DNA from: Desulfamplus sp.
GTDB lineage: Bacteria; Desulfobacterota; Desulfobacteria; Desulfobacterales; Desulfobacteraceae
Length of the DNA: 35,384 bases
NCBI GenBank assembly: GCA_015232455.1
Contig: JADFZQ010000030.1
Coordinates: 1 to 35,384 of the forward strand
Reading direction: 5' to 3'
The notes under the pieces were generated by a model. That model searched no databases, was not told the origin of the DNA, and was given only the letters and a program-made list of their open reading frames with translations. Positions 6,211 to 31,319 of this stretch are shown here, in pieces. Position numbers and translations under genes: made by a program. Each line of letters starts with the position of its first letter. The stretch's first letter is position 1.

Positions 6211-9200
6211 TTATTTATTGACGTAGGTTATTTTAATAACTTCAAAACTTGCTTCTAATTGAGTTAAACCATCTTTAATCACATTATCATCATGCGTTTT
6301 AGCAGCATCTTCTATCATAGAGCATATCTCTCCAAGTTTATCAAAACCATACATATTAAACCCACCTTTGAGTTTATGACCAATTTTTCTAATTGATTCA
6401 TAATCTTTATCTGTAAGTTTATCAGCTATTGATGCTATTTCTGCTTTTTTATTAGAAAGAAAATCTGGAATCAAATCTTCTAAGTCAATGTCAATTTCAA
6501 ATACATAGCTTTCTTCTTTTAAATAGCTCTTTTCTTCTAAGTTACTATCTTCTTTTGAATAAATATCTTTTTCTAAATAAATCTCTTCTTTTTTAATGAA
6601 AAATTTCTTTGAAATATCAATGAGATAACTTTTTACAGCATCAAAATTAAAGAGTGCCATGTTATCGGTCAGATTTTTAAAATCAGATTCAGTTATATAG
6701 AGCTTTAACTCCTGAATAAAGGGATTAACAGCGTCAGGGTTATACTCTTCACAAGCATCAACTGCCTTTGAAAGTAGAGTTTCTAATTTGGCACTATCTT
6801 CAATTTTAGTTTTATTATCCTCAATCCTGCTATCTCTGTTTTTGTTATTTTCACCTATTTTATTAATTTCAACTTTATTATTGCCAGTCAGGCTGCTTGC
6901 AAGGTTATCAATACTGGCGTTGACAAAATAATTTATAAAAATCTGCTTTATATGGTCGCGACTTACTGGCTTTGTTAAATAGGCATTAAATCCAGCGTTA
7001 ATACATTTTTGGCGTGTTTCATTATCATCATGAGCTGAAAGAGCAACAATTATTATAGGATTATTTTTTGTGAAATTATAGGAAGTCAGATTATTTTGTA
7101 TTTGATTACTCTTTGTCTCAGCAATTTGTGGCAGAGCAATAATGTTTGTTAAGTTATGTTCTCTCTCCCATTCTCTTATTTTAGTAACAGCCTCCATTCC
7201 ATTCATAATAGGCATCTCCATATCCATGAAGATTAGATCATAATGTGATAATATAGCTTTTTCTAATGCAATTTTACCATTTTCAGCTGAATCAACTATC
7301 AAGCTTGGCTCTTTTAGATAGGTTTTAAGTATAAGCCTGCTATATTCATCATCTTCAACAATCAAGATTTTAAGTTTAGGAAGGTTATTTGTAAAAATGC
7401 TATTTGAAACAATACTTTTATTTTCATTTGTTTCATCTCTATTTATCTCATTGTTATCTCTATAATTTTCATTAACTGAGGTATTAGTTAGAAAAATATT
7501 TTCATAAGATGGCGGCAGCTCTTTTGAATGGGCAGATTTTAACAAAACAGCAATTGTCGTGCCTTTTGTCTCATCAGTGGTCATGGATATAGAGCCTCCT
7601 AAAGTTTGAGCCATTAATTTGGCGGAATAAGTGCCAAGTCCAGTTCCTCCCTTTTTTCCTGAAGTTGCATATTTATCAAAAAAAGTATCTCTAATGGAAG
7701 CTGGCACAACACCGTAATTGTGAATAAAAATTATAGCATGTTCTGTTTGTCTGTTTGCGTTTAAGAGTTGATTTGAGTTTAAAAATTTATCTAACGAGGA
7801 ATCTGTTTGGTGTTTAGATTTTAATAAATCATCTGGTTTCTGGTATGATGCTGTAGAGTTTGGGCTGTATTGTATAGAGTTTGAAAGGCAGATTGTTATT
7901 TTATTTTTTTCTGGAGATGCTTCAACTGCATTTTTAATGATATTTGCAAACATTGAGTAACATAAAAGCTCTTCACCCAAAATTGTAAAAGTCTCATTTT
8001 CACCAGCATCTCTTGTCTCTTGCGTAAGATAACTCCATAAACTTTCTTTATTTTTTATTGTACCTGTATGAACATTGTCTATTGTGTCTGCTTTGGGGTT
8101 GTCTGTTATCAATGCTTTGTCATTGTCTATCTGGTTATTGCCTATATTTGTTAGGTTTTCTTTTATTAGAATCTCAAACTTAACATTTTTCATGCCAGCT
8201 AAATGCCTTAAGTCAGAAACAACTTTGCGGATAACTTCTAATATATCAACATTAACAGCATTAAGTGTGTAAGTTTTATTCTCCATTTTTAACATATCAA
8301 GCGATAGATTTATCATATTAAGCATTATATATCCTGATTTTTTAATTGATTGGATAAGCTCAATATGTTCACTGCGAAGAAGCGGGGAAAGATAGCTGTC
8401 CTGCAAAAGTATTTGTGGAAATGCGATAATGCTATTTAAAGGGGTTTTCATATCATGGCGGGTGATTCGTTCAACCTCTTCTTGATGCTTTGTTCTCTCC
8501 TTTAGTATGACAGCTTCGCTATGCAGCTTTTGAACCTCTAACTTGCGTTCATACTCCTGCTTTTTGAAAAATATATAGGTGTAAACCGCACAAATTAAAG
8601 TTAAAATATATATTAAATATGCCCACCAGCTTTTCCATGGAGGAGGCGGGATTATAAGGTCAATAGAAACTCCAGATTCGTTCCAAAGACCGTCATTATT
8701 GCTGCCTTTAACCTTAAACGTGTATTTACCCCCATCAAGATTTGTATAGCTGACATAACGTCTTGTTCCGCAGTTAATCCATCCATTATCAAACCCAACC
8801 AACTGATAGGCATACTGATTTTTATGGGGAGCAGCATAATCTAATCCAGCAAACTCAAATGAGAAAAAGCTATCTTTATATGACAAACGAATTGTTGGAA
8901 GGCTGCTGAGTGCATTAGCAGGCAAAATTTCTTTATCAAAGATTTTAAAAGAGGTAAGGACAATTTCAGGAATGTTTGGGTTATCAGATATTTTAGAGGG
9001 ATTAAAGATATTAAAGCCGTTAATACCGCCAAAAAAAAGCTCACTATTTTTATTTTTAAACCCAGCTCCAATATTAAATTCATTGGACTGAAGCCCATCT
9101 TCTTTTGTGAAATTTCTAAACTCTTTGGTATTTGGATTAAAACGAGACAGCCCCTTATTTGTGCTTAACCATAAATTATTTGTCTCATCTTCAATTATCA

Positions 9201-11391
9201 CATAAATAGTGTTGTTGCATAAACCATCTTTTTCAGAAAACAGGGTAAATGTCTCTTTTTCACGATTAAAAAGGTTTAACCCATTTTTTGTAGATAACCA
9301 TATTCTTTGTTTGCTATCTTCCATGATAAAGATGATCCTGTTATTTGATAAGCTGTCAGGATTTGAAATATCATGCTTATAACTTTTAAAGGTACCACCC
9401 TTTAAATCTAAGCTGTTTAAACCGTTCTCTGTTCCAATCCAGATGAATCCTAAATGATCCTGCATTACAGTTCTAACCCTGTCATGGTTTATGCTTCTTG
9501 TGTATGTATATGCAGCAGATTGATATTGGTTATTTTTAAGACTATTTTTAGCATTATCAGAGCCAATCTTCTTACTCTCATTATTTTTGTTATCAATATT
9601 AGAATCATGTCTGTAATGTGTAAGTTTATTTTTAACAATATCAAAGCAGTTAAGCCCGCCATTATAAGTTGCAATCCATAAAAGACCTGTTCGGTCTTCA
9701 TAAATTTTCATAATGTCAGAATCGCTTAATTTATTTGGTAAAGAATCATCTAACGAGTGGGTTGGTAAAAAAGAACTATTTAACAAAGGAGGAACTAAAA
9801 GAGGAGTATCCTTATAATAGCGAGTAAATTCGCCAGTTTGACGATCCATAAGATTTAAGCCATCTTCTGTGCCAACCCAAAAAAGACCTCTGCTGTCTTC
9901 AAGAATCGTTTGAACTCTATTATTGCTAATGGTTTTAGGATTAGATGGATCGTGCTTATAAGCTGTAAATTGGTTTAAATTTCTATCAAATCTACACAAA
10001 CCCACATCTTCTGTTCCAATCCAAACTATTCCATATTGATCTTCAAACATTGACCATATACTATTGCTGCTTAAACTATTTTCTTGGAAATTATCTTTTT
10101 TAATATGCAGAAATTTTTTTTCTGATAGTTTGTTTATTCCGCCTAAAAATGTGCCGATCCATAAAACACCAGATTTATCTTCATAAATCCTCATAATACT
10201 TAAATAGCTCAATCCATCAGGGTCAGATGTAATATCTTGGTTGAAAATCTGAAATTTTTCTCTATTTTTATCTAAAATATTGATTCCGTTTTCTGTGCCT
10301 ATCCATAAACGTCCCTTTTTGTCTTCATAAATAGCAGTTACAGAATTGCTTGAAATAGTTAATTTATTATCTGAATCATGTTGGTAAAATTTTATAGTAT
10401 CTGTTGCATTACTGCCTGACTCATTATTACGGTTACTATTATCATTTATTTCGCTACTGCTGATTTTAGCTAAGCCGCCTTTGTGCATACCAAACCATAT
10501 ATTATTGCTTTTATCTTCGTAAATAGCTGTAATCTCATTATCAGGAATGGTAGAGACACACGGTCTTGCATCTCTACTTGTTTTTGCGTCTTTGCTAAAA
10601 TCTTGATTAGATATTCCATTCTCATAGATTCTAACACTTTCAATATTATTGTTATCATCTAAAGTAATTTTGTTTAAGCCATTCTGTTTAGTTCCAACCC
10701 ACAATATGCCTTTAGAATCTCTATAAATGGCGGTAATGTTATTGCCGCTTATTATTTTTGGATTACCTGCATTTTTTAGATTATCTGGATTGCTTAGAGA
10801 GTCTGTGTCTTGTTGGGAATTTGTAGTGCTGTATTGGTAGTGTACGAAGGTATTTGTTGACGATATAAAGCAGCTAAGTCCTCTGTTCTCTGTTCCAAGC
10901 CAGATATTGCCCTTATAATCTATATGAACAACTTTAATAAAATTATCGCTTATGCCTTTTGAGTTGTTTGCATCATAACGGTAATTTATAAATTTTTCTG
11001 TTTTTGGATCAAATCGGCTTAACCCCTGACCACGAGTGCCAATCCACATAATTCCTGATTTATCAATTGCTATATCATAGATAAAATTATCTGATAAACT
11101 ATTGGCATCTTCAGGGTTGTTTTTAAAATATGTAAAGCTGTATCCATCGTATTTGTTCAGCCCGTCCTGAGTGGCAAACCACATAAAGCCATTTTGATCT
11201 TGTATAATGGCGTTAATTGTATTTTGAGAAAGACCATCTTCAATGGTTAAATGGTCAAATCTGACTGAACCTATAAAACTAAAGGCAATATTGTTTGTAG
11301 AGAGTATAATATATAAGAAAGCCGCAAAAAATAGGGCACAAAAAGAAATGAAATCTCCAATCAGTTTTTTGATATTTATTAAGCGTATCAA
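6211..11391 (-). CDS. Hybrid sensor kinase with 14 two-component propeller repeats, receiver and Hpt
   Basis: A membrane-anchored one-protein phosphorelay of 1726 residues. An N-terminal hydrophobic segment (residues 10-40) is followed by fourteen Reg_prop-type repeats of the form IYEDKSGVLWIGT, about residues 50-830. Fourteen would make two seven-bladed propellers. Then come a Y_Y_Y domain (about 850-915), a transmembrane helix (about 925-945), a HisKA-type helix with phospho-acceptor His979 (HDMKTPL), an ATPase domain with N-box Asn1154 and GTGLG near 1249-1253, a receiver with Asp1390 (FMDMEMP), and an Hpt domain with His1672 (GHKLKGG). The periplasmic part resembles the sensors of Bacteroides hybrid systems, but the output is Hpt, not AraC-type DNA binding, so a separate response regulator is expected. 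Many Asn/Ser/Lys-rich inserts interrupt it. The ligand is unknown. It starts 41 bases after the transglutaminase-like gene and is probably co-transcribed with it. Confidence 0.93.
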   Translation of the reverse strand: MIRLINIKKLIGDFISFCALFFAAFLYIILSTNNIAFSFIGSVRFDHLTIEDGLSQNTINAIIQDQNGFMWFATQDGLNKYDGYSFTYFKNNPEDANSLSDNFIYDIAIDKSGIMWIGTRGQGLSRFDPKTEKFINYRYDANNSKGISDNFIKVVHIDYKGNIWLGTENRGLSCFISSTNTFVHYQYSTTNSQQDTDSLSNPDNLKNAGNPKIISGNNITAIYRDSKGILWVGTKQNGLNKITLDDNNNIESVRIYENGISNQDFSKDAKTSRDARPCVSTIPDNEITAIYEDKSNNIWFGMHKGGLAKISSSEINDNSNRNNESGSNATDTIKFYQHDSDNKLTISSNSVTAIYEDKKGRLWIGTENGINILDKNREKFQIFNQDITSDPDGLSYLSIMRIYEDKSGVLWIGTFLGGINKLSEKKFLHIKKDNFQENSLSSNSIWSMFEDQYGIVWIGTEDVGLCRFDRNLNQFTAYKHDPSNPKTISNNRVQTILEDSRGLFWVGTEDGLNLMDRQTGEFTRYYKDTPLLVPPLLNSSFLPTHSLDDSLPNKLSDSDIMKIYEDRTGLLWIATYNGGLNCFDIVKNKLTHYRHDSNIDNKNNESKKIGSDNAKNSLKNNQYQSAAYTYTRSINHDRVRTVMQDHLGFIWIGTENGLNSLDLKGGTFKSYKHDISNPDSLSNNRIIFIMEDSKQRIWLSTKNGLNLFNREKETFTLFSEKDGLCNNTIYVIIEDETNNLWLSTNKGLSRFNPNTKEFRNFTKEDGLQSNEFNIGAGFKNKNSELFFGGINGFNIFNPSKISDNPNIPEIVLTSFKIFDKEILPANALSSLPTIRLSYKDSFFSFEFAGLDYAAPHKNQYAYQLVGFDNGWINCGTRRYVSYTNLDGGKYTFKVKGSNNDGLWNESGVSIDLIIPPPPWKSWWAYLIYILTLICAVYTYIFFKKQEYERKLEVQKLHSEAVILKERTKHQEEVERITRHDMKTPLNSIIAFPQILLQDSYLSPLLRSEHIELIQSIKKSGYIMLNMINLSLDMLKMENKTYTLNAVNVDILEVIRKVVSDLRHLAGMKNVKFEILIKENLTNIGNNQIDNDKALITDNPKADTIDNVHTGTIKNKESLWSYLTQETRDAGENETFTILGEELLCYSMFANIIKNAVEASPEKNKITICLSNSIQYSPNSTASYQKPDDLLKSKHQTDSSLDKFLNSNQLLNANRQTEHAIIFIHNYGVVPASIRDTFFDKYATSGKKGGTGLGTYSAKLMAQTLGGSISMTTDETKGTTIAVLLKSAHSKELPPSYENIFLTNTSVNENYRDNNEINRDETNENKSIVSNSIFTNNLPKLKILIVEDDEYSRLILKTYLKEPSLIVDSAENGKIALEKAILSHYDLIFMDMEMPIMNGMEAVTKIREWEREHNLTNIIALPQIAETKSNQIQNNLTSYNFTKNNPIIIVALSAHDDNETRQKCINAGFNAYLTKPVSRDHIKQIFINYFVNASIDNLASSLTGNNKVEINKIGENNKNRDSRIEDNKTKIEDSAKLETLLSKAVDACEEYNPDAVNPFIQELKLYITESDFKNLTDNMALFNFDAVKSYLIDISKKFFIKKEEIYLEKDIYSKEDSNLEEKSYLKEESYVFEIDIDLEDLIPDFLSNKKAEIASIADKLTDKDYESIRKIGHKLKGGFNMYGFDKLGEICSMIEDAAKTHDDNVIKDGLTQLEASFEVIKITYVNK

Positions 11392-13967: not shown

Positions 13968-15689
13968 TCACGGTGTGTATAGCGTTACTAAACATCTTGT
14001 ATCTTGATCGCCAAGGCTTTTTAGCTGATGAGGTGTTTCAGAGTTAAACTTCATTGACTCTCCAGCAACTAATTCATACACCTTTTCGTCAAGGGTCAGC
14101 TCAAGGTTACCATCCATAACATATATGAACTCCTCGCCTTCATGCTTGTATGCAACTGGCTTATGTTTTTTATTTGACTCTATAGTTACCATAAAGACTC
14201 TAAGATGTTCATTTTCCGCCCCGGGCGTAAGATTTTGGTAATAGTAATTTCCTGTTCTTCTTGTATATTCTTTTGCCCTGTTACCTGAAAGTTCTGCTCT
14301 CTCTCCTTCATTGAGGAAAGTCTCAGGATCAATCCCAAAAACTTCTGAAAGTTTAATCATAAATCCAACAGATGGAGTTGTTCGGTTATTTTCAAGCTCT
14401 TCAATAAATTCAGGGTTTCTGCCTGTTCTCTTTGCAAGCTCTTCAAGGGTTAATTGATGTGATTTTCTCATAGACATAAGCTTTGAGCCAAAATCAGAAC
14501 TTTTGGAATTGCTATAACCATTACTCAAAGTCTCATCTACTCTGACTCTCTCCATTTCACTACCATCATCTATATTACCCATTTTGGAATCAGAAAGGGT
14601 ATTTGCAAGTGAACGCATGGCAATTTTTTGAATCTTCTCAGTCAATGCTGGAATAAAAAGAGCAGAATCTTCAACAACTCCAATATCAGCAAATCTAAAT
14701 ATTTGTGCATTCGGGTCTTTGTTGATAGCTACAATCATCTTTGATTCTGTAATGCCTGCGGTATATTGAACAGCACCAGATGTTCCTACTGTAATCAGAA
14801 GTTCTGGTTTTATTGTCTTGCCTGTCTGACCAATCAGGCGATCTTCGTCAGTCCAGTGCCATAAAACAGGGGGTCTTGTTGCCCCAATCTGACCGCCAAG
14901 AGCATAAGCAAATTTTCTTAAATTTCTAAACCCTTCAATATTTCCAACTCCCGCACCGCCTACAACAACTTTATCTGCTATCTCAAGGCTTTGCTCTTGT
15001 AATCTATCTTTTTTTACAGAAACTCTTTTTATTCGCGGCTCTGTTGTATCGCCATTATCCAAAAGATTAATAGAAATTGTTTCTACTCTGCTTTGGATAT
15101 TGCACTGAGAAGTATTATACTGAGAGCTTACCAACTCCTTTTTAAACGCATTTGGCTGCACAGTAATAAAACCAGTTTTAGATGGATCAGAAAATCCAAG
15201 TTCAGCCATGATTTCACCACCATGAGAGGGGCATACTGCAATTATTTCGTTTTTCTCATATTTTAGATATTTGCAATCTGCAATCATGCCTGTCCCGCAA
15301 ATAAACGCACACCTTGCAGATATTTCGCGAGATATATCATTTAAAGGAAAAAGAAAAACAGATGGAGTTCTATTTTTAACAAGTTCAGCAAGTAGTTTTG
15401 AAACTGTCTCTGGCAGAAAATAAGATTTATATATTTCATTTACAGAGTCATCATTATTATTAATGACACTGACAATCATTACTCTATCTGCACCATAATT
15501 TAATGATTGCTCAATTACTGATTGGATTGATGCTTGATAATCTTTTGAACTATTTTCAGAAACCACAATTACAAAAATTTTCTCTGAATTCATACTTTCG
15601 GCAAGTTTACCAGCACCGCAAAGAACATTAAGACTTGTATCAAAAAGAGATTGATTTCTTAAATCTCCGTATATCCATATATCGCCCAT
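13968..15689 (-). CDS. Electron-transfer flavoprotein alpha subunit fused to XRE DNA-binding and cupin domains
   Basis: Residues 1-375 are an ETF alpha subunit. The FAD domain shows GGAGVG, GGQIGATRPP, a Trp-rich loop, RLIGQTGKTIKPELLITVG and INKDPNAQIFRFADIGVVED. An Asn/Ser-rich linker (about 376-395) leads to a helix-turn-helix of the XRE class (about 396-455, LTLEELAKRTGRNPEFIEEL) and then a cupin (about 505-570, KHEGEEFIYVMDG ... ETPHQ). The reading frame is continuous. A normal ETF alpha ends near residue 320-380, so about 200 residues are added. The ETF part should pass electrons from the acyl-CoA dehydrogenase upstream. The tail is built like a small-molecule-sensing repressor. It begins two bases after the etfB stop, with GGGGT as ribosome-binding site. 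Whether the protein binds DNA is inference. Confidence 0.9.
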   Translation of the reverse strand: MGDIWIYGDLRNQSLFDTSLNVLCGAGKLAESMNSEKIFVIVVSENSSKDYQASIQSVIEQSLNYGADRVMIVSVINNNDDSVNEIYKSYFLPETVSKLLAELVKNRTPSVFLFPLNDISREISARCAFICGTGMIADCKYLKYEKNEIIAVCPSHGGEIMAELGFSDPSKTGFITVQPNAFKKELVSSQYNTSQCNIQSRVETISINLLDNGDTTEPRIKRVSVKKDRLQEQSLEIADKVVVGGAGVGNIEGFRNLRKFAYALGGQIGATRPPVLWHWTDEDRLIGQTGKTIKPELLITVGTSGAVQYTAGITESKMIVAINKDPNAQIFRFADIGVVEDSALFIPALTEKIQKIAMRSLANTLSDSKMGNIDDGSEMERVRVDETLSNGYSNSKSSDFGSKLMSMRKSHQLTLEELAKRTGRNPEFIEELENNRTTPSVGFMIKLSEVFGIDPETFLNEGERAELSGNRAKEYTRRTGNYYYQNLTPGAENEHLRVFMVTIESNKKHKPVAYKHEGEEFIYVMDGNLELTLDEKVYELVAGESMKFNSETPHQLKSLGDQDTRCLVTLYTP

Positions 15690-15691
15690 TT

Positions 15692-16519
15692 CTACCCCAC
15701 AAAACCAGCTTCTAATAATTTTTGAGCCAACTGTTCTGCCTTTTGATCATAAGTGCCATCAATAAATTGACACCCCTTTGATCTTTTTTCCTTATTCCAT
15801 GCAACAATCTTTGTTGGAGATGCAATAAGCCCCGTCTCCTCTGGCTTTAATCCTAATGTCTGGTTATCCCAAAACTCAATATTTTTGTCTGAAAAAGCTC
15901 TCTCAACTCCATAAAGAGATATAAAATTTGTTCTGCCAAAGGTGTTAGAATCACCAAAAGATGAACTTACACTAAAAGCTGTGCTGGAATTTTTTTGTTC
16001 CTTACTATTTTTAGCATCAACTTCAAATACCTCTAAATATCCATCTGTCTTTCGCTCTACAATCCATCTATTTTTAATCTGATCCGCTTTTAATGAGTGG
16101 ATATTTCCAACAAAAGGAATATCAAGCATCTGGGCTGTTTGAGGTCCAACATGACCTGTATCGCTGTCTGATGAGCGTGTGCCAAACAGAACAATGTCAA
16201 ATGGTTCAAGTTTTTTTAAGGCTTTTCCCAAAACCTTTGCTGTTATGTAGGTATCAGACTCTTTTAAAGCTGGATCACAGATGAGAACTGCTCTATCTGC
16301 ACCCATTGCAATAGTTTGATGAATCCCAAATGTTGCACTTTTGGGTCCCATGCTTAATACAGTTAAAGTGCCTTTATGCTTTTTTATTAAAGATAGAGCC
16401 ATCTCAATGGCTGGTTTATCAAAAGGGTTTAACTCCATATTTTCTAAAGTGTTTCTGTTGCTGCTCGGCAGCATATTATTAATCACCGATTTTACGCAGG
16501 CGATGATGTTGAGTTCCAT
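15692..16519 (-). CDS. etfB: Electron-transfer flavoprotein beta subunit
   Basis: A 275-residue ETF beta. It has the N-terminal IIACVKSV strand, the NPFDKPAIEMAL segment and the nucleotide-binding region RSSDSDTGHVGPQTAQMLDIPFVG. It pairs with the fused EtfA directly downstream (two-base gap) to accept electrons from the acyl-CoA dehydrogenase encoded two genes upstream. A Ser/Asn-rich insert at about residues 168-195 (KNSKEQKNSSTAFSVSSSF) is not typical of the family and echoes inserts in neighbouring genes. AGGAAAA precedes the ATG. It could be a bifurcating or a simple ETF. The sequence alone does not decide this. Confidence 0.92.
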   Translation of the reverse strand: MELNIIACVKSVINNMLPSSNRNTLENMELNPFDKPAIEMALSLIKKHKGTLTVLSMGPKSATFGIHQTIAMGADRAVLICDPALKESDTYITAKVLGKALKKLEPFDIVLFGTRSSDSDTGHVGPQTAQMLDIPFVGNIHSLKADQIKNRWIVERKTDGYLEVFEVDAKNSKEQKNSSTAFSVSSSFGDSNTFGRTNFISLYGVERAFSDKNIEFWDNQTLGLKPEETGLIASPTKIVAWNKEKRSKGCQFIDGTYDQKAEQLAQKLLEAGFVG

Positions 16520-16654: not shown

Positions 16655-16897
16655 TCAATTCCTCTCCCATTCAGAGCTTCGCAATTGACGTACCCATGAT
16701 GTAGTATCCTGTATATCCTTACGATCTTCCCACATGCCTATAAAAGAGGTATCTCGTAATCTGTTTTTTTTGGAGGATTTTATAATATTCTTTGAAGCAT
16801 GATAACGTGTTTTAAGAAAAGCTATGAAATCAAAAGCTTGTTGCTGTGCTTCAATTGGTAATGAATTTATCTCTTCCACAATATTATTAGTTATCAT
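16655..16897 (-). CDS. DUF2281/VapB-type antitoxin-like small protein, no toxin partner
   Basis: An 80-residue protein. A helical N-terminus (IVEEINSLPIEAQQQAFDFI) is followed by a basic linker and a C-terminal FIGMWEDRKDIQDTTSWVRQLR segment. This pattern is familiar from small antitoxins that normally sit directly before a PIN-domain (VapC) toxin. No toxin gene follows, only a short gap with a possible remnant and then etfB. AAGGA precedes the ATG. It starts 17 bases after the acyl-CoA dehydrogenase stop, so it is transcribed inside the ACAD-ETF operon. It may be a relic or may now serve only as a regulator. The family call is from memory of the motif. Confidence 0.65.
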   Translation of the reverse strand: MITNNIVEEINSLPIEAQQQAFDFIAFLKTRYHASKNIIKSSKKNRLRDTSFIGMWEDRKDIQDTTSWVRQLRSSEWERN

Positions 16898-16914: not shown

Positions 16915-18126
16915 TTAAGAGAGCAAACTCCTTGCAATTACCATGCGATGCACCTCGCTTGTTCCCTCATAAATCCTTGTGATACGGGCATCACGGTAGT
17001 ATCTCTCAACTGGATATGATTTTGAGTAGCCATATCCGCCATGAATTTGAACAGCCATATCTGCAACACGACTTGCAGTCTCACTTGCCATAAGTTTTGC
17101 CATTGCCGCCTCTTTTGAAAATGGTTTTCCCATATCTTTTAAAAGTGCTGCACGATAGACCATAAGTCTTGCTGACTCTACTTGGGTTCCCATATCTGCA
17201 ATCATATTCTGTATTGACTGGTGTTTTGAAATTGGGACATTGAACTGAATCCTCTCCTTTGCATATTTTATCCCCTCTTCAAGAGAACCTTGAGCAATTC
17301 CAACAGCTTGGGCAGCAATTCCAATGCGTCCTGTATCTAAAGCTGCAAGCCCTATCTTAAGACCTTGCCCCTCTTTTGCAAGAAGATTGCTTGCGTGGAT
17401 TTTACAATCACTTAACCTTATTGAAGAGACAGGATTTGCACGCATACCAGATAGGTTCTCACGCTCTCCAACTATAAATCCAGCACTTCCTTTTTCTGCA
17501 ATAATAACACTAATTCCTTTTGGTCCTGCTGAAGGGTTGGTTCTAACAAATATTAAAAAGGTCTCAGCCACTCCGCCATTGGTTACAAAAACTTTATTCG
17601 CATTTACAATATAGTATTCATCATGCTTATCAAAATCTTGTTTATCACTATTAGAATCGTTTTGATGGCTATTGTTGAAACTCTGTGTGTTCTCATATTT
17701 TATTGCAGTTGCTTCAATAGCAGAGGCATCAGAACCAGCATTTGGTTCTGTCAGGCAAAAAGCCCCGATTTTCTTACCAGTTGCAAGGTCTGGAACAAAT
17801 CTCTCTTTTTGTGATTTATTGCCAAAGGCAAGAATAGGATAAATAGCAACGCTGTTGTGAACAGATGCACATAATCCTAATGATGCAGATGCCTTTGAAA
17901 TCTCTTCAATAATAATGGTATAGCTCACTGTATCCATGCCAGCACCTCCAAGCTCTTTTGGTGCTTGAATACCTAAGTAGCCAAGTGCTGCCATTTTATC
18001 GACAACTTCCCAAGGAAATCGCTGCTCCTCGTCAATCTCTTTTGCAATAGGAACAATCTCTTTTTGTGCAAAATCTCGAACCGAATGTCTTACAATTTTA
18101 TGTTTTTCTGTTAAAAATATATCCAT
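16915..18126 (-). CDS. Acyl-CoA dehydrogenase
   Basis: A 403-residue FAD enzyme that oxidises an acyl-CoA to the enoyl-CoA and passes electrons to ETF. Hallmarks are [14 protein letters not shown] (flavin/substrate loop), VTNGG, the [20 protein letters not shown] segment, and the catalytic base Glu387 in [11 protein letters not shown], the position used by short/medium-chain and butyryl-CoA dehydrogenases. An Asn/Ser/Asp-rich insert ([19 protein letters not shown], about residues 146-170) breaks an otherwise standard domain and explains the extra length. Its partner ETF is encoded downstream in the same direction, so this is probably a beta-oxidation or branched-chain degradation unit. The exact substrate cannot be read from the sequence. 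Confidence 0.94.
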
Positions 18127-22911: not shown

Positions 22912-24519
22912 CTATTGGTTATACCTAAGTTTCCGCTCTTCTTGAATCAGCTTCATTGTCTCTTCACTTCCACCTGTTTTGATCCACAGATGCTCAGGTT
23001 TTGCGAGCAGGTCTGTTATGTACTTTTTATATTTTTCTCCCTGACCCGCGTGATCTGCAAGCTCTTGAACTTCTGGCAAAAATTCGTGATAGAAATTACG
23101 TGAGACTTCATACATTCCGTGCCAATGGGTATAGTCAGGTGCGTGCATTGCAGCAGCCATTCTTGCCCTTCTGCCCTCATGGTGCCAAACTTCAAACCAT
23201 GTATAACCAAGTTTGTGCTGGAATCCGCTGTTTTTCAAAATTCCATCTTTGGTCAGCATGTTGATAAGTTCTGTTCCGGGTTTGCCAAACTTGTCATTGT
23301 AAAGGGTTACAAGCTCATCAAATTGGCTGTAAAAATCTTTAATGTGGTTTATTCCATGACAAGATTTGCAAACCTCCTGCATCTTATCGCGTCTCTCCTG
23401 CCATGATACCACACTTTCAATTGTCTTTTCTGCCATGACCTTGTTTAACTTATCTGCCTCCCTTGTATATGATTTGGCAGTTATTTTCTGCCCAGCTCTT
23501 GGAGGAATATCACCAGGGACGTCTGTAACTGTGCCGTCAGTAAAGGTTACACGATTTAATTTTGAAGATACAGGTGCTCTTAAATTCCATGATATTCTGT
23601 CCCCTACATTGTGGCTGTTCTTTGCAACTGCACCGTTGAGCTTTACATAAGAACCCATGTGGCAAGTTGAGCAGGTTGGGGCTGCATTGTAATCCTCTCC
23701 AAGAACCCATGAACCATCTTTCATAATGTTCATACCTTCAGAACCAGCCTCTTTAGATGCTGTAGCATAAGCAATACCATGTTTTGACTCTTCATAGATC
23801 TCTTTTTGCGGGTGATCTGGTCCAAGATGACACTTACCGCAGTTTTCAGGCTGTCTTCCAGCACTTGCTCTAAATGAATGTTTTGGGTGGCAGGCATTAC
23901 ATGCACCTCTTGATCCGTCAGGGTTAATACGCCCTATTCCTGAATTTGGAAAGGTGTTGTGATCCATCTGTGGAGCATCTGTCTTTGACCTTAAAGGTTT
24001 GCCATCTTTATCTCTCTTAAGAGTTACGATAGAACCATGACACTGCCAGCAGCCGCTGTGCATGTTGGATTTATTGTCTGGCATACCGCCAATAACCTCT
24101 GCAAGCATATTGTCAAGAGATGCCATTATTTCACCAGCAGTTGCATGGTGAGAAATGCCCATCTCCTTTGCTTCTGGTTCATGGCATTTTGAGCAATCTT
24201 TTGGTGAAAGTATGGCTTTTATAAAAGCTCCTTCATGTTGATAACCAGTCTCGTCTCCTGCTTCTGCTGCGTGGCAGTTGTAGCATCCAACCTGCCCTTC
24301 TTTTGCTGCTGCGTGGGCTGATGCCTCCCACTGTTTAACCATTGATTTGTTCTCTTTTAGATGGCATGTAATACATTTCTTGTTCATCTCCTGAACCTTT
24401 GGGTTTTTAACATCAAAGGACTCTTGAGTTAATCCAAACGCACTTTCTGAAGTGAAGAAAGTCATGGCTGGGAAGATTGATAGCACTGCAAAAATGGTGA
24501 ATACTTTTTTAAACGTCAT
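22912..24519 (-). CDS. Octahaem c-type cytochrome of the hydroxylamine oxidoreductase family
   Basis: A periplasmic 535-residue enzyme. A signal peptide (about 1-29) precedes eight CxxCH haem sites at Cys49, 79, 109, 157, 207, 227, 283 and 384. The HAO-family core follows the sixth haem (LGPDHPQKEIYEESKHGIAY), and a long helical C-terminus contains HHEGRRARMAAAMHAPDY and HWHGMYEV. Family members either oxidise hydroxylamine/hydrazine or reduce nitrite and hydroxylamine. Direction depends partly on a Tyr cross-linked to haem 4. Tyr463 lies in a candidate region, but only an alignment could confirm it. The upstream tetrahaem/4Fe-4S/NrfD genes suggest quinol-fed reduction. AGGAGG precedes the ATG, 31 bases after the NrfD stop. 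Confidence 0.9.
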   Translation of the reverse strand: MTFKKVFTIFAVLSIFPAMTFFTSESAFGLTQESFDVKNPKVQEMNKKCITCHLKENKSMVKQWEASAHAAAKEGQVGCYNCHAAEAGDETGYQHEGAFIKAILSPKDCSKCHEPEAKEMGISHHATAGEIMASLDNMLAEVIGGMPDNKSNMHSGCWQCHGSIVTLKRDKDGKPLRSKTDAPQMDHNTFPNSGIGRINPDGSRGACNACHPKHSFRASAGRQPENCGKCHLGPDHPQKEIYEESKHGIAYATASKEAGSEGMNIMKDGSWVLGEDYNAAPTCSTCHMGSYVKLNGAVAKNSHNVGDRISWNLRAPVSSKLNRVTFTDGTVTDVPGDIPPRAGQKITAKSYTREADKLNKVMAEKTIESVVSWQERRDKMQEVCKSCHGINHIKDFYSQFDELVTLYNDKFGKPGTELINMLTKDGILKNSGFQHKLGYTWFEVWHHEGRRARMAAAMHAPDYTHWHGMYEVSRNFYHEFLPEVQELADHAGQGEKYKKYITDLLAKPEHLWIKTGGSEETMKLIQEERKLRYNQ

Positions 24520-24550
24520 AGTCTAATTTCCTCCTGTTTTTATTACTTGT

Positions 24551-25765
24551 TTATTGAATACCGCTTTTTCTCTCCTCTGCCCAGAATGGAAAAATCTTTC
24601 CAAGCACAAAAAGTATTATAAAAGGTATGAGCATTATTATGATCACTGCTGCAATACCCTCCTTATCAAACCATTCAGGGTGAAATTCAGTATAGCCTCT
24701 TGCACTTTTGGACATAAGCTGCCCGCCGATAACAACATTCCAACGCATGATAAAAACCTGAAGTAATAAAATTGCAGAGACTAAACCCGAAATTGCTGTG
24801 TAAATTGCATCTTTAAGAGGAATAAAAGCCATGCAGCCTAATAATATAAGCGGAATTACAGAACATATCTTTACCTGCCAGAGCCAAAAAGAGCTTGCAA
24901 GTGGACCGTTCAAAAGCCCCTCTACCATGTGATGGTAACCTGTTTTAAGGTATGAATGAGAAAAAACCTCAAGCATCTCAAAAGAGAATGCAAGGATAAA
25001 AAAGCCTGTCAAGGTCTTGATGCAGGTTCTTATGCAGTCAGAATCAACAGAATGCCCACCTATTTTCCGAATAATAATATATGCAATAATAATTGCTGAT
25101 ATTCCAGATACACAGGCAGAGAATAGAAAAATAACAGGCATGAGCGGAGTTGACCATGTTGGATTTGCCTTAACACCTCCAAATATAAAACCAACATAAC
25201 CGTGAAGAACAGCAGCTACTGGTATTCCAAGCCCAACGAGAAAACGGATAATTTTGCCGTCAAGAGCAAGTGCTTTTTCCGAAAGATCGTTACTGTCAAA
25301 AGTTAAAGCACGATAGAGTAGTTTCATAAATCCTTTGGCTTTTTTACCTCGTTCAACCAAATCAGGACGATAGACAAAAAGCACGATAAACGAAAGAACT
25401 CCCATTGATACAGCATAAATATAGCCAAATCCCGCCATTGCAGAGCTTGGGCTTGGTGTTAAAAGCATGTTAAAATTTCGCTCAGGTCTTCCAAGATGAA
25501 GAAGAAGTGGTAATGTTGCACAACAGAGAAACGCAAATGCAAACAATAGTGAAAATCTTGCGATAGGCTTTAAACTCTTTACGTCAAATAGATAGTATAA
25601 AGCCGCAATGATAAAAGCCCCATCAACAAGCCCTGTGATATAAGGATAGAGGACAATCATCATGCTCCAATGGACATGAAGATCGTTTGGAAAGACATAG
25701 TTTGAGATGAGCATTGATGCTCCGTGCGAAAGTTCTGTAGATGCTTTATATAAAGTAGGATTCAT
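24551..25765 (-). CDS. NrfD/DsrP-family quinol-interacting membrane subunit
   Basis: A 404-residue polytopic membrane protein with about ten hydrophobic helices and the NrfD-family motif LLLHLGRPERNFNML, in the region tied to quinone binding. Such subunits pass electrons between the quinone pool and a periplasmic 4Fe-4S partner. The ATG overlaps the stop of the 4Fe-4S gene by one base (TAATG), indicating tight coupling. The octahaem cytochrome follows after 31 bases. Together these form the likely membrane module of the HAO-like complex. Direction of electron flow is inferred. Confidence 0.92.
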   Translation of the reverse strand: MNPTLYKASTELSHGASMLISNYVFPNDLHVHWSMMIVLYPYITGLVDGAFIIAALYYLFDVKSLKPIARFSLLFAFAFLCCATLPLLLHLGRPERNFNMLLTPSPSSAMAGFGYIYAVSMGVLSFIVLFVYRPDLVERGKKAKGFMKLLYRALTFDSNDLSEKALALDGKIIRFLVGLGIPVAAVLHGYVGFIFGGVKANPTWSTPLMPVIFLFSACVSGISAIIIAYIIIRKIGGHSVDSDCIRTCIKTLTGFFILAFSFEMLEVFSHSYLKTGYHHMVEGLLNGPLASSFWLWQVKICSVIPLILLGCMAFIPLKDAIYTAISGLVSAILLLQVFIMRWNVVIGGQLMSKSARGYTEFHPEWFDKEGIAAVIIIMLIPFIILFVLGKIFPFWAEERKSGIQ

Positions 25766-26679
25766 TAAACCACCTCCAATCTCTGCCCCATGTAATAAAG
25801 GGCGGGTAAAGTTCCCATTGATTGTTTTAGCACTGTCAATACTCCCGGACCTTTAAGTATTTTATAAACTTCAGAGTTTTCGTCATTTAAGCTGCCAAAT
25901 TTTCTTGCACCAGTTGGGCAGACCTCGACACAAGCTGGCAAAAGCCCTTTTCTGACACGGTGATAGCACCACGTACATTTTTCAGCAGTTTTAGTTATTG
26001 GATTTAGAAATCTTGCAGAATATGGACACGCCTGAATACAGTATGCACACCCAACGCATCTATCGCTGTCCATCAGGATAAAACCATCAGGAGAGATAAA
26101 TGTTGCCCCTACTGGACAGACCTGAACACACGGAGCTTCTTTGCACATGTTACAAAGTTTTGGAACAAAAAAGGTGTCTCTTGCATTCAGTGGTATGTCT
26201 GTGCGGGGTTTTTGGTAGCCATCAAGTCCACCATTTGGGCAATCAACATAAACTTGATCGTCAAAATCTTTGATATATCTTTCAACCCATGTGCGATAGT
26301 TGCCATCAGGAACATTATATTCTCGTTTGTCTGCAACGCAGCACGAACCACAACCGATACACCTTGTTATATCAACGATAAATGCGAAATTTTGTTTATA
26401 TATATCGTATTGACGATCTCTTATTTCGGGAATCTCTTCAGGTAATTTAATAGTTGGATCAAAGGTGGATATTCCATCTTTTAAGGTGCTATTTTTATCA
26501 AAATTGCCTCCACCAGTTGTATCCATAGGAAAAACCAGAAAAAGTGAGCCTGCAATAGCCCCTTTTAACACTTTTTTAATAAAATCTCTTTTATCCATAT
26601 CTAAGGGGAATTTTTCATCACTTAAGATAAGTTGTTCATTTACACAACTTTTATTAACTTTAAAATCTTTTATAATCAT
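25765..26679 (-). CDS. NrfC/TtrB-type 4Fe-4S electron-transfer subunit with altered cluster motif
   Basis: A 304-residue ferredoxin-like subunit with four Cys groups. Three are regular: 176/179/184/188, 208/211/214/218 and 235/238/250/254. The first is Cys107, Cys110, Cys113 followed by Asp117 where the fourth Cys is expected, with an extra Cys114 (RCIGCGSCCVADK). The export signal KRDFIKKVLKGAIAG (residues 30-44) is a Tat signal with Lys-Arg in place of Arg-Arg, a variant also known from Salmonella TtrB. A strong GGAGGT supports the start at 26679, leaving an unusually long 28-residue region before the Tat motif. It overlaps the tetrahaem gene stop (ATGA) and the NrfD start. It should carry electrons between NrfD and the haem proteins in the periplasm. 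Confidence 0.91.
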   Translation of the reverse strand: MIIKDFKVNKSCVNEQLILSDEKFPLDMDKRDFIKKVLKGAIAGSLFLVFPMDTTGGGNFDKNSTLKDGISTFDPTIKLPEEIPEIRDRQYDIYKQNFAFIVDITRCIGCGSCCVADKREYNVPDGNYRTWVERYIKDFDDQVYVDCPNGGLDGYQKPRTDIPLNARDTFFVPKLCNMCKEAPCVQVCPVGATFISPDGFILMDSDRCVGCAYCIQACPYSARFLNPITKTAEKCTWCYHRVRKGLLPACVEVCPTGARKFGSLNDENSEVYKILKGPGVLTVLKQSMGTLPALYYMGQRLEVV

Positions 26680-27209
26680 GGTTTTACCTCCATCAAGCCT
26701 GTTATTTTTTTCGCTTCATTTATGTATTTTAGAGGTGCATGGACATGATGGCACTGGTTACAGGTGTGTGTGAGCTTTACATTCTGTTTTTTAAGATGAT
26801 CTTGGATCCCAACTGTTTTAATAACCATAGTTGATCTGGCTTTTATTTCGGTGTTATGACACCTCAAGCATAAAGTTGTGATCTCTGTTCCTTTTTTCAC
26901 GGGTAGATTGGCGATTTTTTTCCCATTTTTTATGTGATCTGAATATGTGCCATGACAAAATTCGCAAGATATGGTTTTGTGATTACCTTTAAGGTGAATA
27001 GTTGCCTCGTATTGATGGCACCCAAAACATGAGGCGTTTGTGCCATGTTTCAAAACTCTTTGTGCCTCTTCATCAATAGCATCAGCTCTGTATGGACCAT
27101 AAAGACCAAACGATTTAGGTATCAACTGTGCTTTTAACACAAACCCAACTCCTGCCATTAAAACAACACTTGCCACAACAAAAGCAATACGCAAAGCATG
27201 TTTTGACAT
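26676..27209 (-). CDS. Membrane-anchored tetrahaem c-type cytochrome
   Basis: A 177-residue protein with one N-terminal hydrophobic anchor (residues 8-26) and four CxxCH sites at Cys61, 82, 114 and 150. Several extra His residues (HHVH after the fourth haem) could be distal ligands. It leads the octahaem operon and should relay electrons between the 4Fe-4S/NrfD unit and the octahaem enzyme. It is not a plain NapC/NrfH by motif, and I cannot place it in a named family. GTG at 27212 is an alternative start. I prefer the ATG at 27209, ten bases after AGGAGG. Confidence 0.87.
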   Translation of the reverse strand: MSKHALRIAFVVASVVLMAGVGFVLKAQLIPKSFGLYGPYRADAIDEEAQRVLKHGTNASCFGCHQYEATIHLKGNHKTISCEFCHGTYSDHIKNGKKIANLPVKKGTEITTLCLRCHNTEIKARSTMVIKTVGIQDHLKKQNVKLTHTCNQCHHVHAPLKYINEAKKITGLMEVKP

Positions 27210-27280
27210 CACAAATAGACCTCCTGCAATTTTAACGGTTTGGGAACTTACTAAAAGTTGTCAAACCTAATTCTACTTTG

Positions 27281-29236: not shown

Positions 29237-30892
29237 ATGTTTTGTTTTCAATGTCAGGAGACAGCCAAAGGAACTGGCTGTACAGTAAAGGGTGTTTGCG
29301 GCAAGGAAGATACCACTGCAACTCTTCAGGATTTGCTCATTTTTAACCTTAAAGGTATTGCTATTCTTGCTACAAAAGGCAAGGCTGCTGGAGTTGATGT
29401 AATTAAAGAAGCAGGGCAGTTTGTAACCCAGGGACTTTTTACCACAATCACAAATGTTAATTTTAATGATGCAAATTTGATTCAGTGGATAAAAAAATCT
29501 CAAGAGTTCAAGAAAGGTCTAAAGAGCAAAGTTGAAGGTAAGTGTTCTTGCAGTTGTTCAACAACTCTTGATGACTCTGCTGTCTGGTTTTCAGATGATG
29601 AGGCAACATATCAGGAAAAGGGCAAAACAGTTGGTGTGCTTGCAACAGAGAATGAAGATGTAAGGTCTTTGCGTCAGCTTCTTATCATTGGATTGAAAGG
29701 AATTTCAGCCTATGCTGACCATGCTGCGGTTCTTGGTGTTGAGAAAGACGAAATTTATGAATTTATTCTCAAAGCACTTGCATCAACAACCGAAAACTTG
29801 TCTGTTGATGAAATGGTGGGATTAGTTCTTAAGGCTGGTGAGTGTTCTGTAACAACAATGGCAGCTCTGGATCAGGCAAACACTACAGCTTACGGAAATC
29901 CTGAAATCACAGAGGTTAATATCGGCGTGGGTAAAAACCCAGGGATTCTTATCAGCGGCCACGATTTAAAAGATATGGAAGAACTTTTAAAACAGACAGA
30001 AGGAACTGGCGTTGATGTCTATACACATGGTGAGATGCTGCCTGCAAACTACTATCCAGCTTTTAAGAAATATGCTCATCTGAAAGGAAATTATGGCAGC
30101 TCTTGGTGGAAACAGAATGAGGATTTTGAGACCTTTAACGGTGCAATTTTGATGACCACAAACTGCATTATCCCTATAAAGAGCAAAAACACATATCAAA
30201 ACAGAATCTTTACAACTGGTGTTGTCTCATATCCAGAAGTTAAACACATTGCAGATAGAGATGCTGGAAAGGCTAAAGATTTTTCTGAAATTATAGCAGT
30301 TGCGAAAAAATGCCAGCCGCCTCAAGAGATTGAGACAGGAAAGATTGTTGGTGGATTTGCACATAATCAGGTACTCGCACTTGCTGACAAGGTGATTGAG
30401 GCTGTAAAATCTGGTGCAATTAAACGATTTATTGTAATGGCGGGCTGCGATGGCAGGCAAAAAGGTCGTGCATATTTTACAGAAGTTGCTGAGAAACTCC
30501 CAAAAGATACAATAATTTTAACTGCTGGTTGTGCAAAATATCGCTACAACAAGCTCAACCTTGGCGATATTGGCGGAATCCCAAGAGTTCTTGATGCTGG
30601 TCAGTGTAATGACTGCTACTCATTAGCTGTTATTGCAATGAAACTTCGTGATGCTTTTGGACTTGCCCATATCAACGATCTTCCTCTTTCATTTGATATT
30701 GGCTGGTATGAACAAAAGGCTGTTGCTGTTCTTCTTGCTCTGCTTCATCTCCAGATCAAGGGAATCCGTCTTGGGCCAACACTTCCTGGTTTTGTATCTG
30801 CTGGAGTTCTTAAAGTGCTTGTTGAAAATTTTGACATTAAACTTATTGGAGAGGCAGATTCAGATATTGCAGCAATGATGGCTGGTAAGTAA
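29237..30892 (+). CDS. hcp: Hybrid cluster protein (class I), hydroxylamine/NO reductase
   Basis: A 551-residue prismane protein of the cytoplasm. The N-terminal [4Fe-4S] site is Cys3, Cys6, Cys15, Cys21, the class I spacing. All hybrid-cluster ligands are present: His242, Glu266, Cys310, Cys404, Cys432, Cys457 and Glu492. They match the known Desulfovibrio vulgaris set with a constant shift of two residues. Hcp reduces hydroxylamine in vitro and is linked to NO detoxification and protein S-nitrosylation in vivo. AAGGAGG precedes the ATG. It is preceded by an FNR/DNR-type promoter and followed by a cupin gene and a quinol NO reductase. No hcr reductase gene is adjacent, as is usual for class I. 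Confidence 0.98.
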
Positions 30893-30917
30893 GTAGTAGA
30901 TAATACGACATAAAATG

Positions 30918-30945
30918 GTAGAGACGTACGGCTGTGCGTCTCTAC
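30918..30945. repeat. GTAGAGACG...CGTCTCTAC palindrome (family C, copy 2)
   Basis: GTAGAGACG (30918-30926) and CGTCTCTAC (30937-30945) form a 9-bp stem with a ten-base loop, 26 bases after the hcp stop. No strong T-run follows (ATATTTTG), so it is a weak terminator at best. Copy 1 is at 22046-22073. Confidence 0.8.
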
Positions 30946-30998
30946 ATATTTTGTCTGTTTAAAACAGATGACAATTTATATAATAAGGAGGGAAGACT

Positions 30999-31319
30999 AT
31001 GATTAAAAGAATAGAGATATTTAAAGAAAACAGCTTTAACGACAAGAGTTTGAGCAGATTGATAGTCCATGATTCATCAGATTTCAAGATAATCAACTTT
31101 AATTTTAAAGCTGGGCAAGAGTTGCCAATTCACTCTCATGATATTGATGGTCAGCTCTCTATTGTTGTTTTAGAGGGTCAAGGAGAGTTTCTTGGCAAAG
31201 ACAATGCTGTATTTCCTGCAAATTTAGGTGATATTTTGATTTCTGATATTCGTGAGCCTCACGGCATCAGAGCAACTACAGACATGAGAGTTGTAGTTAC
31301 CATTGCCCCGCCGATTTGA
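30999..31319 (+). CDS. Small cupin-domain protein
   Basis: A 106-residue single-domain cupin. The first metal motif is PIHSHDIDGQLSIVVLEGQG and the second IREPHGIRA, giving His-His plus a later His as likely metal ligands. It has no signal peptide, so it is cytoplasmic. GGAGGG precedes the ATG, 106 bases after hcp. A TATAAT at 30979 is too close to the start to be its promoter. Placed between hcp and the NO reductase, it may bind a metal or metabolite linked to NO stress. Its substrate is unknown. Confidence 0.87.
   Translation: MIKRIEIFKENSFNDKSLSRLIVHDSSDFKIINFNFKAGQELPIHSHDIDGQLSIVVLEGQGEFLGKDNAVFPANLGDILISDIREPHGIRATTDMRVVVTIAPPI

Follow-up and report, generated by a model that had tools for sequence, protein, structure and literature searches.

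What is a regulator-type module doing at the end of an electron-carrying flavoprotein? The question is raised by a 35,384-nucleotide stretch of DNA from Desulfamplus sp. (hereafter the window; contig C23 in a genome of 82 contigs), in which translation of positions 13968-15689 on the reverse strand gives a single open frame, with no internal stop, encoding 573 residues plus the stop codon. The protein begins with the alpha subunit of electron-transferring flavoprotein (ETF), EtfA, followed by a linker, an XRE-type helix-turn-helix (HTH) and a cupin; the HTH and cupin are called the tail below. An earlier note on this DNA had proposed a continuous frame of this kind, and both the translation and Pfam bear it out: ETF matches residues 5-185 (1.1e-16), ETF_alpha 235-313 (2.3e-24), HTH_19 401-460 (1.7e-10), HTH_3 404-457 (6.1e-9) and Cupin_2 501-568 (1.3e-14), all above the cut-off. 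The extent of EtfA, given in that note as residues 1-375, has to be shortened. EtfA, with domain I and the domain II that carries flavin adenine dinucleotide (FAD), ends near residue 357 (residues 1-357, 14619-15689); domain II occupies residues 234-357 (14619-14990) according to Pfam, PDB matches and an alignment of 36 members, and the same alignment assigns residues 358-396 (14502-14618) to the linker. Next come the net negative HTH (residues 397-464, 14298-14501; Pfam and charge counts) and the cupin (residues 496-573, 13971-14204; Pfam and alignment), all on the reverse strand. By sequence, the closest solved EtfAs are 7koe_B (1.1e-39), 5ol2_A and 6fah_A, and the closest solved structure to the tail is 1y9q, listed as an HTH_3-family regulator. 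PADLOC matches of the protein are confined to the HTH.

The earlier note had allowed for an assembly error at the linker (about 14490-14570). Such an error, or a frameshift, is ruled out by a 94% identical full-length copy elsewhere, by the fused order in sequenced strains and by the lack of stops in related loci. A search of 39 genomes, the studied one included, recovered the full fusion from five congeneric genomes, with identities between 94 and 63%, and matched pieces of it from two further congeneric genomes, one genome of a different genus (G010) and one of a different family (G038). Desulfamplus magnetovallimortis shows the same fused order, as do two sequenced strains, Desulfocicer vacuolatum DSM 3385 and Desulfosarcina cetonica JCM 12296. 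A scan of named genomes with two peptide patterns taken from the EtfA part of fused proteins returned 40 loci, and the matched frame lacks a stop in 40/40. Their labels are Desulfamplus, Desulfocicer vacuolatum DSM 3385, Desulfosarcina cetonica and other Desulfobacterales or Deltaproteobacteria, along with Desulfatiglandales, Smithellaceae, one Nitrospirota and two Myxococcota. Five loci cut by a contig end (L065, L083, L086 and L091 at the 3' end, L085 at the 5' end) were excluded before alignment. We thus searched for the three-domain order and its gene context, as the earlier note had suggested, and the order recurs: ETF, ETF_alpha, HTH_3 and Cupin_2 are all matched in each of the 36 full-length proteins (35 and the studied one). 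The fusion of EtfA with an HTH and a cupin is confirmed as a genuine single protein.

To count genomes, we used a profile of the 36 full-length proteins (alignment A3) and called fusions by reading the match table. The fusion is present in 56/389 genomes of the order: in 50 the frame runs through the tail without a break, 4 are truncated at contig ends, 1 is in two frames and 1 has a stop. At the phylum level, in a sample that shares some genomes with that of the order, 23/395 genomes match at 1e-90, comprising 22 fused and 1 tail-less. A weaker match to EtfA only (E up to 1e-70) is seen in 89 genomes of the order. Both kinds occur together in 2 genomes against 12.8 expected by independence (P about 3e-5, relatedness not removed, with three scored candidates per genome), and the fused and EtfA-only kinds may replace each other.

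Mean pairwise identity among the 36 proteins is 0.43 in EtfA domain I, 0.68 in the FAD domain, 0.52 in the HTH and 0.71 in the cupin, the most conserved part of the protein. From residue 358 to the HTH, the linker measures exactly 16 residues in 29/36 proteins and 28-39 in the other seven, the Desulfamplus proteins. In the cupin, H516, E520, H554, E519, G518 and Y514 are identical in 61/61 fused rows of the alignment (codons of His516 at 14142-14144, Glu520 at 14130-14132 and His554 at 14028-14030). H516, E520 and H554 are also identical in 15/15 rows of stand-alone XRE-cupin proteins, and this invariant His-Glu-His set is probably a metal set.

A second peculiarity of the family lies in the flavin site. 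Residue 309 (codon at 14763-14765), which is the His position in the G-x-S-G-A-x-Q-H motif of other EtfAs, is aromatic in all 63 fused rows (Tyr in 60, Phe in 3). In the same comparison, it is His in 18/18 tail-less rows other than L122, the exception being considered below. Residue spacing and alignments map R272, T289 and residue 309 to R249, T266 and H286 of the human protein; R272 is kept in 62/63 and T289 in 63/63 fused rows. In human ETF, alphaHis-286 reportedly forms a hydrogen bond with the N1-C2=O locus, and an H286A variant bound FAD weakly (excerpts of PMC5827430). The tail is thus associated with an altered alpha-FAD site, and hence with flavin chemistry.

The fused gene does not stand alone. 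Upstream on the same strand lie etfB (15692-16519, 275 residues; Pfam) and a gene for an acyl-CoA dehydrogenase (ACAD; 16915-18126, 403 residues; Pfam and gene clustering). The closest PDB sequences to this EtfB are CarD (6fah_B, 4.7e-28), an EtfB of the bifurcating type, and Clostridioides difficile EtfB (4.8e-24). We examined context in 41 loci, made up of the 40 scan loci and the studied one. EtfB is directly upstream in 36/41 by clustering; the translations show it in 3 more, in one of them broken across two frames where the contig starts, and the other two loci begin too close to a contig end. ACAD is found in 34/41 loci and partially in one more; two Desulfamplus loci (L055, L057) have EtfB without an adjoining ACAD, and the remaining 4/41 cannot be judged. 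Among 51 further stretches, which partly come from the same genomes and include the tail-less L122, EtfB is present in 51/51 and ACAD in 49/51 (L129 and L165 lack it). Since every other gene family occurs in at most 4/41 loci, the conserved unit is ACAD-EtfB-EtfA::tail. The ACAD-etfB-etfA order given in the earlier note is therefore upheld; the "LysR run" that it had tentatively added to the unit is a lineage-specific neighbourhood, the LysR, EamA and epimerase clusters being present in 4, 3 and 4 of 41 loci, respectively, which rules these genes out as part of the system. Of note, the space between ACAD and etfB contains an open reading frame of 80 residues without Pfam match in the window (16655-16897), and an unrelated nucleotidyltransferase-domain gene in a close Desulfamplus genome (L039:11897-12193).

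How did the tail come to be there? An EtfA tree of 77 rows, built by a quick method and rooted at the midpoint, unites the fused proteins with a tail-less sister group, the 'DYRNYF' EtfAs, in one clade with a support of 99 in the SH-like approximate likelihood ratio test (SH-aLRT), and the main fused clade is supported at 100. The sister group has the ACAD-EtfB-EtfA order as well (L137, L139 and L138, the EtfA of the last being placed by profile-search coordinates). The tail-less L122 is nested within the fused clade with local supports of 84-90, which suggests that it has probably lost its tail secondarily. The earlier note had listed homologues without the tail among the findings that would refute it; this holds in part, for L122 and the sister clade, and not for the 36 full-length fused proteins. 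In a tree of tails (59 rows), all fused tails are separate from 13 stand-alone XRE-cupins, which are united with supports of 100/97, and the distant XRE-cupin L005 falls outside; this topology fits a single fusion event. In the EtfA tree, a divergent fused trio (L121, L124, L125) groups with the DYRNYF sister group at 92, so that more than one order of tail gains and losses is possible.

In 26/30 loci of the stand-alone family, ACAD lies downstream on the same strand within 1.5 kb, so that the connection to acyl-CoA metabolism is not confined to the fusion. The group (L048, L049, L050, L051 and L235-L264, mostly 56-66% identical to the copy in the studied genome) has matches in 51/76 genomes and is possibly an undescribed acyl-CoA regulator. 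One stand-alone XRE-cupin gene (L080:7365-7961, reverse strand) is divergent from an ACAD-EtfB-EtfA::tail cassette and separated from its upstream end by 80 bp, so the stand-alone and fused forms can coexist.

We may hypothesize from such neighbourhoods that neighbouring genes were once joined by a single ancient read-through and that the tail has since been a stable passenger without specific role. That stand-alone XRE-cupin genes adjoin other ACADs, and in L080 the cassette itself, is consistent with this idea, as is the probable loss of the tail in L122. However, a passenger is hard to reconcile with a cupin whose identity exceeds that of the FAD domain, with a linker of fixed length in most members, with cupin residues invariant in 61/61 rows and with a tail missing from just 1/23 phylum matches at 1e-90, and we regard this explanation as very improbable.

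A more serious contender, which we consider possible and somewhat less likely than not to hold, is autogenous repression in the manner of PutA: the XRE domain would bind the cassette promoter, and flavin or acyl-CoA state, read through domain II and the cupin, would release it. The earlier note had likewise described the layout as that of a small-molecule-sensing repressor. In support of this view, XRE-cupin proteins of Pseudomonas locally inhibit the metabolic genes beside them (excerpts of PMC7901475), and the flavoenzyme PutA, which has a DNA-binding domain, changes function with its flavin redox state (excerpts of PMC5293562). The fusion is also conserved within a self-contained cassette, with no widely shared genes other than ACAD, EtfB and the fusion itself; its stand-alone relatives precede another ACAD (26/30); the residues of its recognition helix are conserved; and the loci have a promoter-like motif before ACAD in common. 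These points leave part of the repressor proposal standing. On the other side are the acidity of the HTH, the lack of a convincing palindrome by the promoter, the position of ACAD just 2-87 bp behind another gene in five Desulfamplus loci (the studied one, L052, L053, L056 and L065) and relatives that keep the cassette without the tail.

The first two of these objections can be quantified. Fused HTHs have a mean net charge of -2.3, with 51 negative, 7 zero and 3 positive in 61 rows that are related to each other, for which reason P values were given no weight. The mean for stand-alone relatives is +2.0 (15 rows) or +3.1 (30 orthologues, over a slightly different stretch), and seven other HTH_3 domains from the same genome range from -1 to +5. 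Judged by net charge only, fused HTHs lack the basic DNA-binding surface of XRE-cupin factors. The HTH core and the start of the recognition helix are kept (Q424 in 42 and S/T425 in 48 of 61 rows). DNA binding by the fused HTH is in doubt.

As to operators, no convincing palindrome was found upstream of ACAD by palindromic expectation maximization (EM) on 59 non-redundant loci, a set obtained by removing five loci manually and filtering out near-duplicates on k-mers. Scores for widths 14, 16, 18 and 22 were 43.9, 46.5, 45.0 and 58.7, against 37.0, 53.5, 51.7 and 56.1 for the highest of four shuffles. A planted 16-bp palindrome was recovered at 60-80% fidelity with scores of 90-280 (shuffles, 25-37). 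Earlier palindromic EM on 26 loci had given scores within those of shuffles, and a family-wide operator was rejected on both sets. The stand-alone family was unusable as a control, its gene often lying close behind another, so that the conserved signal is upstream coding sequence. The 59 loci do share a non-palindromic, promoter-like motif before ACAD (score 181 against at most 112). It takes the form TTGAC-N13-TCTGATAGC in L132, L133, L141 and L142, with few other exact matches in those genomes: among five genomes tested, the sole exact match lies before the cassette in three, as does one of two exact matches in another. Since the fifth genome has no exact and six one-mismatch matches, against none for the reversed control, the motif is probably an ordinary promoter form.

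A predicted structure brings in another candidate function. A first prediction from 9 sequences was poor, with a predicted local distance difference test score (pLDDT) of 64.7; a second, from 52 sequences with the Desulfocicer protein first, reached a mean pLDDT of 87.5 within domains and a predicted template modelling score (pTM) of 0.49. In this model, a helix predicted at 322-346 runs into the linker. Foldseek retrieves EtfA structures first, then 1y9q (1.5e-13) and then hydroxypropylphosphonic acid epoxidase, HppE (1zzb_A, 6.4e-11; also 2bnn), with low template modelling (TM) scores for 1y9q and HppE. HppE is a non-heme iron enzyme whose ligands are an H-x3-E...H cupin set. Its resemblance to the model means that an HTH-cupin protein need not be a transcription factor. 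The cupin might even be a working HppE-like metalloenzyme, acting on the substrate or product of ACAD with electrons from the fused ETF. This would agree with the invariant H-x3-E...H set, with the predicted structural match of the HTH-cupin unit and with its attachment to an electron carrier. However, the same residues are invariant in 15/15 stand-alone XRE-cupins, so a sensor also fits, and the hosts belong mostly to sulfate-reducing groups, presumed anaerobes in which oxygen chemistry is unlikely. We consider enzymatic activity improbable.

We favour a different role for the tail, as an in-cis ligand- or metal-sensing module on the swinging FAD domain, and give this reading, which we place narrowly ahead of the PutA-like autorepressor, a probability of roughly 0.45. 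A former XRE-cupin regulator would have been added to the C-terminus of an ETF alpha subunit and would now act in cis on electron transfer. The tail is attached to domain II, which carries alpha-FAD and in known ETFs moves between EtfB and the dehydrogenase, by a linker that is short and of fixed length in most members; the cupin would bind a metabolite or metal through the invariant His-Glu-His, and the HTH-linker unit, serving in dimerization or docking and no longer in classical DNA binding, would set whether domain II can swing to the dedicated ACAD. Movements of domain II are documented: in ETF/dehydrogenase complexes, domain II with alpha-FAD adopts two orientations about 80 degrees apart, and superposition of Acidaminococcus fermentans EtfAB on the C. 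difficile EtfAB/Bcd complex shows domain II rotated by nearly 80 degrees (excerpts of PMC5691135). We observe that the fusion is conserved and lies in a cassette, that a set of cupin residues is invariant, that the HTH is negatively charged and the linker mostly fixed in length, and that the tail goes with an altered FAD site; that the cupin binds a metal or ligand, that the tail gates electron transfer and that the HTH no longer binds DNA is inferred.

Several observations weigh against this reading. A phylum-wide pattern scan revealed six tail-less EtfAs of the Tyr type (L206, L207, L213, L224, L225 and the EtfA of L234), and the tail-less L122 retains Tyr at position 309; an aromatic residue 309 goes with the tail but is not sufficient for it. 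Most rows agree at the beginning of the recognition helix (P426 in 57, E/D427 in 58, F428 in 55 and I429 in 56 of 61 rows), so that this surface presumably still contacts something, possibly DNA. Some acidic HTHs do bind DNA. In the operator search, widths of 14 bp (43.9 against at most 37.0) and 22 bp (58.7 against at most 56.1) beat every one of their four shuffles, and a weak operator, one located elsewhere or one that varies between lineages is possible. Finally, with a pTM of 0.49, domain orientation in the model is unreliable, and the model is no guide to whether the tail touches domain II, EtfB or ACAD.

The tail-less Tyr-type EtfAs overturned the perfect association between tail and aromatic residue 309 seen in the first loci. 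Pattern matches that had no locus, in genomes with neither a fused EtfA nor a retrieved stretch, were left out of their count. Five of the six are surrounded by genes in the order ACAD-EtfB-EtfA, and the sixth has EtfB-EtfA at a contig edge. In 4/6 of these cassettes, EtfA is followed by a conserved protein of about 152-195 residues without Pfam match, which carries an SAHHNY-like motif (alignment A5; L229:6880-7338, L230:5294-5881, L231:7721-8209 and L232:522-995). This protein is possibly a substitute partner for the tail.

Each part of this system has a known counterpart. As in the CarD/CarE-type and C. difficile ETF systems, ACAD, EtfB and EtfA are encoded together, and CarE and LctC resemble the fusion in being EtfAs with a fused extra module. 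In CarE and LctC, this module is an N-terminal iron-sulfur domain, of redox type; here it is a C-terminal XRE-cupin, of sensor or regulator type, and unlike in those ETF systems, the His of the alpha-FAD site is replaced by Tyr. HppE resembles the tail in the HTH and cupin of its fold, as judged by Foldseek with low TM-scores, but it is a stand-alone enzyme, and the cupin described here is known by sequence and model. The Pseudomonas factors ErfA, PsdR and PauR share with the tail the order of HTH_3 and Cupin_2 and the proximity of metabolic genes (excerpts of PMC7901475); they differ in that the tail is fused to EtfA, its HTH is net negative and no convincing operator was found in 59 loci. 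Trifunctional proline utilization A, PutA, likewise combines a flavoprotein and a DNA-binding-type domain in one chain (excerpts of PMC5293562). Unlike PutA, the fusion has its XRE-cupin at the C-terminus, with an HTH whose DNA binding is doubtful.

A search of the open-licence PMC literature, which leaves aside subscription journals, returned no published description of an EtfA::XRE-cupin fusion. A review of bifurcating enzymes (PMC6085437) contains none of the words fused, fusion, cupin or DNA-binding, and the fusion is not mentioned in excerpts of two genome papers on sulfate reducers (PMC2702500, PMC5109826). The parts are known and their combination appears undescribed in that literature. 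In sulfate reducers, many dehydrogenases are connected to respiration through ETFs, and the allotment of electron flow among the several ETFs that one cell can have is a live question; Desulfococcus multivorans, for example, has seven (excerpts of PMC5109826). With its conserved sensor-type tail and altered flavin site, the ETF described here would be a protein in which metabolite sensing and flavin redox state meet either electron transfer or gene control. It is conceivable, at somewhat less than even odds, that the swing of the flavin domain is read or controlled by an attached former transcription factor, a switch within the electron carrier that is operated by redox state and ligand and acts either on electron flow or, as in PutA, on its own operon. 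The stand-alone regulator, the fused form and the tail-less forms provide a natural series for comparison.

Elsewhere in the window, a gene cluster at 22912-27212 encodes multihaem cytochrome, NrfD-like and iron-sulfur proteins and is apparently a membrane respiratory complex. At 29237-31319, a gene for a hybrid-cluster (prismane) protein precedes a small gene whose match to a cupin is borderline. Finally, positions 6211-11391 encode a hybrid sensor of 1726 residues with a Reg_prop propeller, a kinase, two receiver stretches and an Hpt domain.
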